Part shown: positions 17,727 through 23,650 of the stretch, piece by piece
Layout: every line of letters begins with the position of its first letter
Position numbering within the stretch: position 1 is the stretch's first letter
Source: Prochlorococcus marinus str. MIT 0919
GTDB lineage: Bacteria > Cyanobacteriota > Cyanobacteriia > PCC-6307 > Cyanobiaceae
Assembly (NCBI RefSeq): GCF_027359375.1
Contig: NZ_CP114779.1
Span: 124,001 to 188,000 of the forward strand
DNA length: 64,000 nucleotides
Direction: 5' to 3'
The notes under the pieces: generated by a model
Databases searched by the model: none
What the model saw: only the letters and a program-made list of their open reading frames with translations
What the model was told of the DNA's origin: nothing
Program-made: the position numbers and the translations under genes

Positions 17727-18665
17727 TCACGAAAGAGAACCTCCGCAACTGGATCCATTACCTGCTGTACAGCCAAAGCAATGTTCACCTACCCTTATCA
17801 ATTGGCCTTCGATTAGACTTTTATTTCGAATTAGCTCTGCAATAGATGTTGGTCCAACTATATTATTAATTCCTAGTTGTTGATTAAAATCGCAGTCATA
17901 TAAATCCCCCTTCCAGTCCACACTAATAGTTTCTAGACACATTATTGAATTTAGATTTTTCGAATTATAATTCTTTATTAAGAGCTCTCTGTATGAATCT
18001 AGTTTCCCTTCTGATTTAAGTTGATTTGCAAAACGTTTTATAGGCATATTTGTAATTACCAATAAATTGTTAAATCTGATTTTATATCTATCCCATAACT
18101 CTTTCTTGTAAATAGCTTCAAGACCCTTCTGGTCAGGTGGCAATTTGTCACCTTGTGGATTGTAAACTAAGTCTAGAGTTAAGTTGCTACCATTATTACC
18201 ATACCCAAGTTTATTTAAGTCTTTTAGACCCTCAATGCTTTTTTTGAAAACGCCATTACCCCTTTGAATATCTACATTAGACTCTTCATAGCAAGGTAAT
18301 GAGGCAATTACTTTCACTTTATTATTTGCGAGAAATTCTGATAAGTATTCATATCCATACTCTTTCAATATAGTTAGATTACATCTATCAATTACTTCTA
18401 CATTTAGTGCTCTGCATTTCACTATTAATTCTTTAAAATAAGGGTGCATCTCAGGTGCTCCCCCTGTAATATCTAAAGTTTTTATTTCATACATTTCTAA
18501 TACTTTAGGGATAAGATCAACAGTTTTCTTCTCCATCATCTCTTTTCTGTTAGGGCTTGCATCTACATGGCAATGCTTGCAAGCTTGGTTGCATTTATAA
18601 CCTAGGTTTACCTGAAGAATAGAAAGTGCCTTTTTTTTTACTCTTGGGAACGTATGATTAATCAT
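17727..18665 (-). CDS. arsS: radical SAM protein ArsS (arsenosugar biosynthesis family)
   Basis: The radical SAM cluster motif C25-x3-C29-x2-C32 occurs in LGYKCNQACKHCHVDASP. DITGGAPEMHP supplies the SAM-binding GGE-like segment. The C-terminal HCFGCTAGNGSSCGG and the CLETISVDWKGDLYDCDFNQ block match the ArsS family, in which extra cysteines bind a second cluster. ArsS acts on dimethylarsenate to form the 5'-deoxyadenosyl-arsenic bond of arsenosugars. No arsM, arsR or arsenate reductase gene is adjacent. Function is from family membership. Confidence 0.8.
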   Translation of the reverse strand: MINHTFPRVKKKALSILQVNLGYKCNQACKHCHVDASPNRKEMMEKKTVDLIPKVLEMYEIKTLDITGGAPEMHPYFKELIVKCRALNVEVIDRCNLTILKEYGYEYLSEFLANNKVKVIASLPCYEESNVDIQRGNGVFKKSIEGLKDLNKLGYGNNGSNLTLDLVYNPQGDKLPPDQKGLEAIYKKELWDRYKIRFNNLLVITNMPIKRFANQLKSEGKLDSYRELLIKNYNSKNLNSIMCLETISVDWKGDLYDCDFNQQLGINNIVGPTSIAELIRNKSLIEGQLIRVGEHCFGCTAGNGSSCGGSLS

Positions 18666-18727: not shown

Positions 18728-19945
18728 CTATGTATTAAATTTCTCATATCTTCTTTTCGCAAGATTAATAACCCACTCTATATATTCATTGTGCCCACCA
18801 CTCATTATAACATCAAATTTTAATGGATCTTCTGCATCAGTAATACCCTCAAGACTTATACTAGAGGATGGTCTCTCTACTTCTCCATGACTGCTATCAA
18901 CAAATATAATCTTATTCTGAGTTTGAAACTCTTCTCCTAATCTTTGAATAAGAGTAAGAAAACCTCTATCACTGCCACCTCTCAACCATTTTCTCTCTGA
19001 TGAAGATTTGTTTGAAGTAATAGTATCTCCAACTCCTATAATCGTAGGCATAAATTTCTTGGGTATCTTGTTAATTGCCTCTCTAACACATTCTTCAACA
19101 TTGTCAGGTGCAAACCTAACATTATAGTTTTCGCCAAAAGGAGATCTTTTATAAACTTGTTGGAAAAATTTGTTTAATAATACAAGTAAGCCTGCCTCTT
19201 TCAAAGCACCATTTATTATAATTTGAATATCAGTTGTGCCAATATCTCCAGATTTTGAATATTTAATAATCTCTTTTTTTCCATTTCTACCGAGATTAGG
19301 TGAAATATGTAGATGAAATGAATCCTCTAAACCTTTATGCTTTGCTTCTTCCATAACTTTTGCCATTACAGACTCCATAGCTTTTTGTAATTTGATTTGC
19401 ATGTCAACCTGATTAGGCACGAGATTAAATAGCGAATTTAAATTTATAGCTGGTGAAAACCTGGTGTCACATATTGCTTTCTCCGCTTCTTTATGTAAAT
19501 CATTAGCATCTAAGGATGGCATTAAAATATTTAACTCTTGATACATTAATTTTTTCATTGTTCTGGGTATCTCCTCCAAGAAAAATTTTTCTTCTTCACT
19601 TATTCCCTGACAACTACTTTCACCAAATTTATTTTGATATTCAACACCACAGGCAGCCAGACCAGGGAGATAAAGACCTTTTTCCTTGGCGCCCTTTTTA
19701 GAACCTATTGACCTTTCAATTATCCTATTCACCCCTCTGAAGCCTTCATGTTCCCCACAGGTTAGAACAGCAAATTCATTCCTAAATTTAGATACAGCTT
19801 GCACATAGTCTTTGTTTATTACTCTTTTGAGGGGGTCTTTAACTAATGGAATACAAACTCCATCAATATCTTGAACTATAAGAATATATTCTAATCTTTG
19901 AAGTTCTCTCAGGAGAGAGAGCTTCTTCTTCTCTTTGACTTCCAT
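18728..19945 (-). CDS. ggpP: glucosylglycerol-3-phosphate phosphatase family (GgpP/StpA)
   Basis: Strong resemblance to cyanobacterial StpA/GgpP along its length: LIVQDIDGVCIPLVKDPLK (residues 22-40, HAD-like DxD at Asp26/Asp28), GLYLPGLAACGV, SFHLHISPNLGRNGK, IIGVGDTITSN and GGSDRGFL. GgpP dephosphorylates glucosylglycerol phosphate made by GgpS to give the osmolyte glucosylglycerol. No GgpS-like synthase lies in this window, so it may act on another sugar phosphate. Length 405 aa is normal. Divergent from the 506-aa unknown gene, with a small inverted repeat between them. Confidence 0.75.
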   Translation of the reverse strand: MEVKEKKKLSLLRELQRLEYILIVQDIDGVCIPLVKDPLKRVINKDYVQAVSKFRNEFAVLTCGEHEGFRGVNRIIERSIGSKKGAKEKGLYLPGLAACGVEYQNKFGESSCQGISEEEKFFLEEIPRTMKKLMYQELNILMPSLDANDLHKEAEKAICDTRFSPAINLNSLFNLVPNQVDMQIKLQKAMESVMAKVMEEAKHKGLEDSFHLHISPNLGRNGKKEIIKYSKSGDIGTTDIQIIINGALKEAGLLVLLNKFFQQVYKRSPFGENYNVRFAPDNVEECVREAINKIPKKFMPTIIGVGDTITSNKSSSERKWLRGGSDRGFLTLIQRLGEEFQTQNKIIFVDSSHGEVERPSSSISLEGITDAEDPLKFDVIMSGGHNEYIEWVINLAKRRYEKFNT

Positions 19946-20039
19946 CTTAAAATACTACTTAAGATTTTATTGATGTAAGTATATTAAAGCCTTTTCTTAG
20001 ACCGATATCTATATGTTTCATTATGATAGTTACCAAACT

Positions 20040-20058
20040 ATAGTTAAATCTTAACTAT
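20040..20058. promoter_or_regulatory. inverted repeat in the ggpP divergent intergenic region
   Basis: ATAGTTAA (20040-20047) and TTAACTAT (20051-20058) form an exact inverted repeat with a 3-base spacer. A further ATAGTTA copy lies just upstream. It sits between two divergent genes, as an operator would, but a chance AT-rich repeat is possible. Confidence 0.3.
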
Positions 20059-20155
20059 TCTCTTCTGACATGCTAATGATTTATTATCAATTTTTAGCTA
20101 AAATAGTAAAATGCACTACCTTGATCTAAAAGGATTTAATTGAGCTTGATATTGC

Positions 20156-21676
20156 ATGAGAAACAATTTTTTTGTTAATTCCAAAGACCCAGAATTAATT
20201 GCTTTAAGGCTAAAGCAATTAGAAGAAGGCAAAATAGGTTTTTATAGTGTTGGCTTGTATCCAGCTTCGCTTGCTTATAATTCTGCAATTCATACAGGTG
20301 GAGAAGATATTTTATTGGCTCCAAGGGAAGGACGAGATATTATGGGAGCTTTTGATGATTCTATCCTTTCGGGAATGGAAGATAAATACATAGACAAAGT
20401 TATAAATATGTCAACCCACACTGAACTACAAGGTTCAGTTATTAACTCCCTAGAATATTTATTCTTAAAATGTGAATTAGTTATCTTAAGTGCTAATAGT
20501 AATCATATAGAAGAAGATCTTATAAAAGCTATCGAAATTCGCAAGAATCTAAGCAGAGAAGAAGTTGTCATAGCATGTCTAGTAGGTTCATTTTGCTATG
20601 AGAAATCCTCATCTAAAGCATATTTACTTTGCCAAAAAGAGACAAACTTGGCTTTTTTTTCAGGTTTTCATAGGCATGGCGCTTTACGCAATCCAAGAGA
20701 CAGCTTTACAGCAAATTTTTGTCATCCAGATGCTTTTACTGCCTTGTTTGGAGCTAGGTTGTTAGATAAAATTTCACCAAATATTCAGGTTGTTTCAGGT
20801 GTTCATAATTTAGAGGGCCAGTATGTTAAGGCCTCTAAGAACATGTCTTCAATTTTTGCAGGATTTGCTCATACATTTCATAAGGATAATCCAGGTTTGT
20901 TGCCTACATTGCTTACCTTGCTTTTAGATCAATGCCTAAATCAAGCAGCAATTGTTTCCATGAGTAGGCCTGATAGAAGCTCTTTATATTCCAAGCAGCC
21001 ATTCCCGATAACTGAACTCGGTTATGGAGTGCAATTAATAGAGGCGGCTGTTATTAGAGACGGTGACATGCAGCAAGTGAGAGATCATACTTTCTCTCAG
21101 TTAACAGCAATGGTTGCAGATGTTAAAGGAAGCATGATGCTCCCCCAGGCTGGAAGCCCAACTCGCAATTTTCAAGTTGGTCAGGTTTTAGCTCAGAAGC
21201 TATTTGCACTTAAGCGTTGCCCTTTAGATATTGATGAGCTTTTTAATTGGTGTGATGATGCAGGCCTTAGGCGCGGTGGTTTAGAAGGTTTGACTTCTTT
21301 GCAATATTTACCTGAAATCCTTAAGGCTTATTTAATACCCTTTCAAGACTCTTCAATGATAACACTTTTATATATAAGTATTTTTGGCAGTAATGACTGT
21401 AAAAAGCTTGCTTACGAAGTCTTAACTGAAAGTAGAGAACTTATAGCTTATTGCAAAGAATCAGTAAAGCTATCTCAAGGTCAATACCTTTCTAAGCTAT
21501 TAGATAATGCTCATATCGAAAAATCCAAAAATATTATTGTTAACTCTATTTTGAATAATTCTTTTTCATTGCTTGAATCTAATGATTATTTTATTGATTT
21601 AATTCCAGATGATATATCAAATGCATATAGTCATTCAGTAGAATTAATAAATATTATTCAAGCCGAATTGTTTTAA
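20156..21676 (+). CDS. large conserved protein of unknown function, 506 aa
   Basis: I do not recognise a named family. The N-terminal third (GKIGFYSVGLYPASLAYNSA ... MGAFDDSIL ... STHTELQG ... CELVILSANSNHIEED) has a Rossmann-like look, reminiscent of the nucleotide-binding half of glycerol-3-phosphate or opine-type dehydrogenases. The middle (FFSGFHRHGALRNPRDSFTANFCHPDA) and the helical C-terminal half (NPGLLPTLLTLLLDQCLNQA; RRGGLEGLTSLQYLPEIL) look strongly conserved. The last ~120 residues are Ser/Asn/Leu-rich and less constrained. It starts at ATG and is followed 13 bases later by a kinase-like gene, so the two form an operon. Confidence 0.75.
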   Translation: MRNNFFVNSKDPELIALRLKQLEEGKIGFYSVGLYPASLAYNSAIHTGGEDILLAPREGRDIMGAFDDSILSGMEDKYIDKVINMSTHTELQGSVINSLEYLFLKCELVILSANSNHIEEDLIKAIEIRKNLSREEVVIACLVGSFCYEKSSSKAYLLCQKETNLAFFSGFHRHGALRNPRDSFTANFCHPDAFTALFGARLLDKISPNIQVVSGVHNLEGQYVKASKNMSSIFAGFAHTFHKDNPGLLPTLLTLLLDQCLNQAAIVSMSRPDRSSLYSKQPFPITELGYGVQLIEAAVIRDGDMQQVRDHTFSQLTAMVADVKGSMMLPQAGSPTRNFQVGQVLAQKLFALKRCPLDIDELFNWCDDAGLRRGGLEGLTSLQYLPEILKAYLIPFQDSSMITLLYISIFGSNDCKKLAYEVLTESRELIAYCKESVKLSQGQYLSKLLDNAHIEKSKNIIVNSILNNSFSLLESNDYFIDLIPDDISNAYSHSVELINIIQAELF

Positions 21677-21689
21677 AGTCTTTTAATAA

Positions 21690-22847
21690 ATGATTGATAA
21701 TATTTACTTTAGCCATGATCAATTGCAAGAAATAGCTTCTTACTTTTGTGAACATAATGTTATATTTAATATAAAAAAGCTTAAGTCTGGAAATATAAAT
21801 AATACATATTTAGTATCGCCAACACCTAAAGATAATAATAGTAGTTTTATTTTGCAATTAATAAACCCTTTGGTTTTTCAAAAACCAGAAATGATTATTG
21901 ATAACTATTTAATATTCTTGGATATTATTGATAACCATATTGATTCATCTTCAAATCCTACTTCTTCTGATTTTTTACTTTTCCCTGAACTATTACCTAA
22001 TTTAGATAATGGTAAATATTTTCTTAAATATAAAACAAATATTTGGAGGGGCATTCATTATATACAGAATACGCTTACCATTGAATCAATTACTTCCACA
22101 AGACAAGCAGAGAATTTGGGAAATTCTCTTAATGTATTTCATAGATTAACTAGAGAATTTCCACTAGATAGACTTTTTCGAGTTATAGAAAATTTCCATA
22201 ATATTGATTATTACTTATATGAGTATGATCAAATGCATAATTCTTCTCAACTGAAATTTATATTACAATCTAACTTGTTTGTCAGAGTTAGTAAAATAGC
22301 AGCCTTTATTATAGAAAATCGGACTAAATATACAAGTTTAGTTGAATTGGGTAAGAAGGAAAATCTATCTTATGGTCTAATACATGGGGATACAAAAATA
22401 ACCAACTATCTTTTCAATAAATCAGATGAATCCGTTAAATCTATAATTGATCTTGATACCATTCAAGAAGGGTACTTGATCCTTGACCTTGCTGATTGTC
22501 TTCGTTCGATCTGTAATAAAGTAGGCGAAGACACTTTGAATATCGAGTTAGTAGACTTTGATTTAGACATCTTTGAATCCTTTTTAAGAGGATATATAGC
22601 CTCCCCTGGCCAACGTTTGAATTCGGCCGACTTAATTCATATACCTTATTTTGTTTCCTATATTTGCTTTGAACTTTGTTTAAGGTTTTTTACTGATTTC
22701 CTAAAGGGGAGCAATTATTTTAAAGCTGATTTCTCAACCCAAAATTTGCTTAGAGCTGAAGTGCAAATTAAATTGCTTAAACTGCTTGAGATGAAAAATG
22801 ACTCGTTGATGAAAATTATAAATGGATTCAAGAATCTCTTTCAGTAG
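21690..22847 (+). CDS. APH-fold kinase, N-acetylhexosamine 1-kinase-like
   Basis: 385 aa of the aminoglycoside phosphotransferase fold. The start shows KLKSGNINNTYLV and FILQLINPLVFQKPEMIIDN, as in NahK-type sugar-1-kinases. The catalytic Brenner loop is LIHGDTKITNYLF (HGD, Asn) and the metal site is IIDLDTIQEG. It should phosphorylate a sugar or small alcohol using a nucleotide triphosphate. The partner 506-aa gene and the divergent GgpP phosphatase suggest sugar or osmolyte metabolism. Exact substrate unknown. Antibiotic resistance is unlikely. Confidence 0.75.
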   Translation: MIDNIYFSHDQLQEIASYFCEHNVIFNIKKLKSGNINNTYLVSPTPKDNNSSFILQLINPLVFQKPEMIIDNYLIFLDIIDNHIDSSSNPTSSDFLLFPELLPNLDNGKYFLKYKTNIWRGIHYIQNTLTIESITSTRQAENLGNSLNVFHRLTREFPLDRLFRVIENFHNIDYYLYEYDQMHNSSQLKFILQSNLFVRVSKIAAFIIENRTKYTSLVELGKKENLSYGLIHGDTKITNYLFNKSDESVKSIIDLDTIQEGYLILDLADCLRSICNKVGEDTLNIELVDFDLDIFESFLRGYIASPGQRLNSADLIHIPYFVSYICFELCLRFFTDFLKGSNYFKADFSTQNLLRAEVQIKLLKLLEMKNDSLMKIINGFKNLFQ

Positions 22848-22945
22848 TCAGCTTACCCAAACTTATTTCCTAATATGACTTAAATATGTACATTCATCTT
22901 CTTTTCCTATTACTCTTTATAAGATAAACATTTTCTCTTTTAGCA

Positions 22946-23650
22946 GTGTCAAAGGAATTAACTCACAGAGGTCATGAACTTAAAGAGCTTGGTTGGTCTG
23001 AGCAAGATATTTTTCGTTATATCGAGCTTTGGGATTATAGACAACGTTGGGGAGCTATAAATCTCGAAAGAGATGATAGGCTATTTTTACGCAAAGCCGA
23101 ATCCGCTCTACCAAAGATCCAAACGCAAAAGGTTTCAGTAAAAAAACCTTTAAAAGAAAAGAATTATTACACTAGAATTCTTTTTTTCTTAGATACCATG
23201 AATACCATGGAGAAAGAGTTAGATGTCCCTAAAGGTACAAAGGGTCTTTGGACAATATTGCTTGAAGAAGAGTTAAGACTCCTAGATTACTTTCAACCTG
23301 TTTTAGGCTTGCCAGATACTCTAAAAGCCAAAGCTTTCAATCCCTTTAGAGAGCAATTTATTTCTTCTGCTCTTGAGAGTTATAAAAAAGATACAGAGAT
23401 GAGAGAGTTTGATTTTAATGTATTAACTTCTTCTTTAGAAGAAAAAAGTAATAAGAAGTGCTTACCTCTTAGAGAAGATAAATATATTAATGAAAAATCA
23501 TATCCTCTTATAAAAAAAGATAAGGTTGAAATCTTAAGGAAACAAGTAAGAGAGCAATTCGCACCTTTAGTTAGGACTACCCTTCCTTCCTTATCAGAGT
23601 CAGATAAACCTAATCCTCCAGAAGATTGGATACCAGAATCAAATTCTTGA
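22946..23650 (+). CDS. conserved hypothetical protein, 234 aa
   Basis: A soluble, charged protein starting at GTG. The N-terminus has THRGHELKELGWSEQDIFRY, YIELWDYRQRWGAINLERDD and RLFLRKAESALP, then a helical central region. It ends in a Pro/Ser-rich tail (PNPPEDWIPESNS). No catalytic motif known to me. It precedes metY by 31 bases and could be co-transcribed with methionine genes. Confidence 0.65.
   Translation: MSKELTHRGHELKELGWSEQDIFRYIELWDYRQRWGAINLERDDRLFLRKAESALPKIQTQKVSVKKPLKEKNYYTRILFFLDTMNTMEKELDVPKGTKGLWTILLEEELRLLDYFQPVLGLPDTLKAKAFNPFREQFISSALESYKKDTEMREFDFNVLTSSLEEKSNKKCLPLREDKYINEKSYPLIKKDKVEILRKQVREQFAPLVRTTLPSLSESDKPNPPEDWIPESNS

Follow-up and report, generated by a model that had tools for sequence, protein, structure and literature searches.

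A candidate glycerol-3-phosphate dehydrogenase, divergent in sequence, encoded beside GgpP in marine picocyanobacteria

What is the function of a conserved protein that matches no sequence family, and whose gene diverges from that of GgpP, a phosphatase of the glucosylglycerol pathway? This question is raised by Q, our working name for a protein of 506 amino acids encoded in a 64,000-nucleotide stretch of the Prochlorococcus marinus str. MIT 0919 genome (contig NZ_CP114779.1, positions 124,001 to 188,000; hereafter, the window). A reading made from the letters of the window (the sequence-only reading) had described the genes for Q and for a kinase as a pair divergent from the GgpP gene, and all three were found in the places it gave. 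The source genome (G000) belongs to the Prochlorococcus group and is complete, with 1,716,770 bases and a completeness of 100%; two relatives belong to the same genus, with a contig of Prochlorococcus sp. AG-402-G22 among them. Taking together the predicted fold of Q, its motifs, the metabolic need of the cells that carry it and its co-variation with other genes within genera, we propose that Q is probably an unrecognised, divergent glycerol-3-phosphate dehydrogenase (G3PDH) of marine picocyanobacteria.

A conserved protein with a predicted G3PDH fold

Homologues of Q are found in 100 of 201 Cyanobiaceae genomes (E value ≤ 0.001), mostly at 48–65% identity, and as they recur across Cyanobiaceae we regard Q as a real gene and not a chance open reading frame (ORF). 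Searches of Pfam, NCBIfam and the sequences in the PDB returned nothing significant, whether Q was used as a single sequence or as an alignment, so that the earlier statement that it matches no family holds for these three collections; a match to cas3_cyano (E value of 0.1) is weak and we put it down to chance.

The sequence-only reading had also called Q dehydrogenase-like, and the predicted structure makes this specific. Built with AlphaFold2 from an alignment of 43 sequences, the model of Q has a predicted local distance difference test (pLDDT) score of 85.1 and a predicted template modelling (pTM) score of 0.84. When it was searched with Foldseek, ranks 1–11 were all G3PDHs, and the 16 best entries in VIA-align were likewise all G3PDHs, with Z scores of 22.6–28.1 over 298–333 residues. 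The matches cover about residues 20–440 of the model and barely include the last 65, and the alignment with VIA-align recovers the two-domain G3PDH fold. The predicted fold of Q is that of a glycerol-3-phosphate dehydrogenase. Two other identities were rejected on the same searches: ketopantoate reductase, the next family in VIA-align, reaches a Z score of 15.2 compared to 28.1 for G3PDH, and the opine and staphylopine dehydrogenases found by Foldseek (6c4r, E value of 3e-4; 6pbn, E value of 1.4e-3) are far behind the G3PDHs.

The first-ranked Foldseek match is DsGPDH of the alga Dunaliella salina (PDB 6iuy, E value of 4.9e-9), a fusion of a phosphatase domain with a G3PDH that makes osmotic glycerol. 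A phosphatase is thus paired with a G3PDH in that protein, much as the phosphatase gene for GgpP adjoins that for Q, although here the two proteins are encoded separately and GgpP belongs to the glucosylglycerol-phosphatase family.

Active-site residues shared with GpsA

Conservation was scored over the 43 sequences, which have 52–64% identity to Q, and 20 of them were aligned with four GpsA sequences from relatives in three MAFFT modes. All three modes set K164-N165 of GpsA opposite K228-N229 of Q, R228-N229 opposite R337-N338, G233 opposite G342 and E254-G255 opposite E377-G378; the first correspondence is also recovered by hhalign under relaxed settings, and the second lies inside the sole segment that hhalign aligned. 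Each of these Q residues is invariant (43/43). We take K228-N229 to be the counterpart of the catalytic K204-N205 in the long helix of GPD1, and R337-N338 that of R269-N270, which bind the substrate phosphate. In G3PDHs, these Lys-Asn and Arg-Asn pairs handle dihydroxyacetone phosphate (DHAP) and glycerol 3-phosphate (G3P).

Q therefore has much in common with GpsA and GPD1 (PDB 3k96, 1txg and 6e90), namely the fold (Z score up to 28.1), the Lys-Asn, Arg-Asn and Glu-Gly pairs and a complementary distribution. It differs from them in that the Pfam and NCBIfam models of the GpsA/GPD1 family do not recognise it, in its length (506 compared to about 306–350 amino acids), in an SxGxxP sequence in place of GxGxxG and in the loss of one catalytic Lys. 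Rather than placing Q in the GpsA family, we propose that it works like GpsA.

Distribution against GpsA and GgpS

GpsA makes G3P and GgpS uses it, and we compared the distribution of Q with that of both across the 201 genomes, 130 of which are good (completeness of 90% or more, contamination of 5% or less). GpsA was scored by its C-terminal domain (PF07479), a model that matched in 10 of 14 known genomes in a control; it is present in 90 of the 201, and G000 has no match. In the good genomes, Q and GpsA are equally common (74 each), with 54 genomes carrying only Q, 54 only GpsA, 20 both and two neither. In these last two (G013 and G073), the contig that carries GgpP, of 3,324 and 3,231 bases, respectively, stops 127 and 3 bases beyond that gene, in the direction in which relatives have the start of Q. 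Over all 201 genomes, 33 have neither Q nor GpsA, and most of those with a completeness value are incomplete assemblies.

Where GpsA is present, Q follows GgpS: among good genomes with GpsA, GgpS occurs in 19 of the 20 with Q and in one of the 54 without (G102). The sole genome with GpsA and Q that is not counted with GgpS (G069) has GgpS fragments only. The same pattern is seen within five genera (g10, g25, g31, g36 and g48), where GgpS is found in 21/21 genomes with Q and 2/17 without, a count made by hand over listed genomes, from which members without any match may be missing. Where GpsA is absent, the two truncated cases aside, all good genomes have Q, irrespective of whether GgpS is present (28) or absent (26). 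As Q accompanies GgpS in genomes that have GpsA and occurs throughout those that do not, the simplest role for it is to make G3P.

The need for a source of glycerol 3-phosphate

Every glycerolipid starts from G3P. Of the good genomes, 26 have Q but neither GgpS nor GpsA, the complete G000 among them. PlsY, which consumes G3P, is present in all 26. None has a match to GpsA (PF07479, 0/26), to glycerol kinase (TIGR01311, 0/26, with 79 matches across all 201 genomes) or to the C-terminal domain of GlpD (PF16901, 0/26 compared to 13/18 other genomes searched alongside). Q is the only candidate for a G3P source that we found in them.

The gap is visible in the literature. Prochlorococcus and marine Synechococcus are the dominant phototrophs of the open ocean. 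In the relevant passage of a 2012 survey (PMC3369817), however, EC 1.1.1.94 is given as unannotated for the Prochlorococcus strains and Syc7803. According to a passage of a 2022 study (PMC9361551), strains from marine and brackish waters have an FAD-dependent glpA, whereas gpsA is reported for freshwater strains and for the brackish SC5.2 isolates; the C-terminal domain of the FAD enzyme is the one that had no match in the 26 genomes above. Neither passage gives a substitute enzyme, and a literature search over articles without their supplements found no named replacement for GpsA in these cyanobacteria.

The link to GgpP and glucosylglycerol

GgpP of the window is a full member of its family, with a TIGR02399 score of 514 bits against a cut-off of 365.5. 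Q and GgpP co-occur almost perfectly: 98 of the 201 genomes have both, two only Q, six only GgpP and 95 neither (phi coefficient of 0.92), compared to 0.49 and 0.47 for Q and GgpP, respectively, with GgpS. The association of Q and GgpP also holds in genera that have them unlinked. GgpS itself (TIGR02398) has no match in the 100% complete G000, and 38 genomes, 26 of them good, keep Q and GgpP without it (counting the fragment in G069 as GgpS). The locus hence resembles the GgpS and GgpP pathway of the Synechocystis type in that GgpP is a full member and GgpS accompanies Q in genomes with GpsA, and differs from it in that G000 has no GgpS and that most genomes with GgpP outside Cyanobiaceae have no Q.

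In most genomes without GgpS, GgpP differs at two sites. Among the 43 sequences compared, positions 63 and 99 hold two cysteines in 21 of the 25 from GgpS-less genomes, including G000 (C63 and C99), and Asn-Gly in all 18 others. The GgpS-less genomes that retain Asn-Gly are three from g30 (G029, G071 and G119) and G036, which is 64% complete. Residue 63 follows a Thr that we take for HAD motif II. From these sequences, GgpP appears to have outlived GgpS and, along one of the two branches that lost GgpS, to have acquired changes close to its likely active site; the two cysteines possibly reflect a changed specificity or a redox pair. We tentatively match strains MIT9312 and MIT9313 to G116 and G071, both without GgpS. 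A study of these two strains lists glucosylglycerol as one of the potential osmolytes in Prochlorococcus cells (PMC9298688). According to a review, most Prochlorococcus lack key genes for glucosylglycerol (PMC6753628).

The sequence-only reading had suggested a small sugar or osmolyte pathway. The link between Q and GgpP is strong. Such a pathway would be only half of the picture, and the better reading is that Q supplies G3P for membrane lipids in all its carriers and for glucosylglycerol in those that have GgpS.

Weighing the explanations

The reaction that we infer for Q is NAD(P)H-dependent and would convert DHAP from carbon fixation to sn-glycerol 3-phosphate. Q may have come with the GgpS/GgpP pathway in salt-tolerant, glucosylglycerol-making picocyanobacteria and supplied its G3P; marine lineages would later have lost GpsA, making Q the G3P source for all glycerolipids, and Prochlorococcus would have lost GgpS as well while retaining Q, as membrane synthesis requires G3P. 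If this is true, Q closes a documented gap in metabolic reconstructions of marine picocyanobacteria, a single gene links salt acclimation and lipid synthesis, and an essential enzyme, here one with an unusual cofactor loop, can diverge so far that its sequence no longer identifies it.

Several observations weigh against this proposal. The dinucleotide loop of Q reads S-V-G-L-Y-P and not GxGxxG, with S31, G33, L34, Y35 and P36 invariant in 43/43 sequences. The Lys of the TKG motif, which we take to be Lys120 of human GPD1, is absent in 43/43; its position in Q, placed from predicted strands and by eye, is residue 143, which is Ala in 21, Val in 15 and Ser in seven. D217 of GpsA, presumably equivalent to the catalytic D260 of GPD1, is set by the aligners at S326 of Q, and an invariant Asp (D322, 43/43) lies four residues earlier. 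An hhalign comparison of Q with a GpsA profile, a weak test as the profile held only four sequences of one family, was not significant (E value of 0.2). With regard to distribution, GgpP is kept where GgpS is gone, for which a pure lipid role of Q gives no explanation; 21 of 22 genomes with GgpP outside Cyanobiaceae are without Q; and one genome (G102) has GgpS, GgpP and GpsA but no Q. Lastly, on a tree of 54 family sequences and G270, made with a quick method and with long branches in Prochlorococcus, two changes suffice for GpsA and likewise two for GgpS, so that few events are behind the complementarity and the genome counts are not independent.

Some of these points would suit a G3PDH-fold dehydrogenase with another substrate, which together with GgpP would make a glycerol-derived compound independently of GgpS. 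The lost Lys and altered Rossmann loop fit this, as do the tighter association of Q with GgpP than with GgpS, the 38 genomes that keep both without GgpS and the N63C and G99C changes (21/25 GgpS-less sequences and 0/18 others). We nevertheless consider it rather unlikely, as it leaves 26 genomes without any G3P source, does not account for Q following GgpS in genomes with GpsA, which points to G3P, and sits poorly with the retained Lys-Asn and Arg-Asn pairs. A further reading, which we put forward tentatively, concerns Prochlorococcus: Q and a GgpP of altered properties, with residues 63 and 99 mostly Cys, might together lead from DHAP through G3P, in two steps and without GgpS, either to free glycerol, as in the fused protein of Dunaliella, or to glucosylglycerol via another glycosyltransferase; Q would then also serve membrane lipids.

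The non-canonical loop and the missing Lys, both common to all 43 sequences, could instead mark a dead or regulatory relative of G3PDHs, for example a sensor of G3P or NADH, with G3P coming from an unrelated enzyme. This is improbable given that Lys-Asn, Arg-Asn and Glu-Gly are invariant in a family whose members are as little as 52% and at most 64% identical to Q, and that searches for GpsA, glycerol kinase and GlpD gave no other G3P source. We give equally little credence to Q being a hitch-hiker of the marine clade, with a distribution that mirrors phylogeny and is uninformative on function. The small number of changes on the Q tree speaks for it, but GgpS and Q vary together within the five genera, Q and GgpP stay together even where unlinked, and the evidence from the fold does not depend on distribution. 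A G3PDH therefore remains our preferred explanation for Q.

The neighbouring kinase and the locus

The kinase encoded after Q belongs to the APH family, and its nearest solved structure is the N-acetylhexosamine 1-kinase NahK (4ocj and 4wh1), with an E value of 9.8e-28 over residues 8–376, in line with the earlier remark that it resembles sugar-1-kinases; a sugar 1-kinase role for it is putative. The proposed operon of kinase and Q, in contrast, did not survive a distribution profile. The kinase is found in 138 of the 201 genomes, 52 of which are among the 101 without Q, and is absent from 14 of the 100 with Q, including all nine g18 genomes listed with Q. It is also missing at the L143 locus, which we take to be that of MED4, and in WH7803, which carries Q, two ORFs taken by eye for SbcC and SbcD lie between the two genes. 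With distributions this unrelated, we reject the operon, and the kinase is a neighbour and not a functional partner of Q.

A divergent promoter shared by ggpP and Q is unsupported as well: positions 19900–23000 contain 13 sigma-70-like matches compared to 14.8 in shuffled sequence, no excess over chance. The features of the locus are listed in Table 1.

Table 1 Features of the Q locus, in positions of the window
Feature	Position	Strand	Basis or remark
ArsS-family radical SAM protein	17727-18665	-	TIGR04167, 444 bits; arsenosugar biosynthesis; downstream of GgpP
GgpP, glucosylglycerol 3-phosphatase family	18728-19945	-	TIGR02399, 514 bits; divergent from Q
Divergent ggpP-Q intergenic region, 210 bases	19946-20155	.	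ORF boundaries
Q, ORF of 506 amino acids	20156-21676	+	ORF list; AlphaFold2 model and structural matches to G3PDHs
Q dinucleotide-loop position, S31-V-G-L-Y-P36	20246-20263	+	Placed by predicted secondary structure and reading by eye
Q K228-N229, opposite catalytic Lys-Asn of GpsA	20837-20842	+	Alignment, conservation
Q D322, candidate catalytic Asp of G3PDH	21119-21121	+	Manual alignment; invariant 43/43
Q R337-N338, opposite substrate-phosphate-binding Arg-Asn of GpsA	21164-21169	+	Alignment, conservation
NahK-like APH-fold kinase, 385 amino acids	21690-22847	+	Starts 13 bases past Q
Protein of 234 amino acids	22946-23650	+	No Pfam match above cut-off

Q beyond the window

A genome scan for Q confirmed 306 loci, of which 80 named ones are listed. 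Among these 80, all are labelled cyanobacterial except four contigs (L065, L066, L073 and L102) of metagenome-assembled genomes (MAGs) labelled ‘Gammaproteobacteria’; their Q homologues are 56–59% identical to Q, and the contigs are most likely mis-binned cyanobacterial DNA. Outside Cyanobiaceae, a single genome of those sampled from the phylum (G270) carries Q and, among the listed loci, so do a few MAGs (L104, L117 and L118). One of these, from Leptolyngbyaceae, has a stand-alone Q (L118:5986-7512) in a genome with no GgpP, which may stem from horizontal transfer or mis-binning. In a search for carriage of Q by cyanophages, 94 stretches fitted a pattern and none was confirmed.

Q evolves much faster in g18, presumably the high-light type of Prochlorococcus, than elsewhere (L037, L040 and L041), with a stem branch of 1.89 changes per column. 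One genome (L115/G083), which we take to be SynAce01, has Q, GgpS, GlpK, GlpD and GpsA but no GgpP. Inspection by eye further placed an ArsS-type radical SAM protein near GgpP in WH7803 and adjoining GgpP at the L143 locus, where a homologue of the 234-amino-acid protein directly follows Q (L143:7227-7886).

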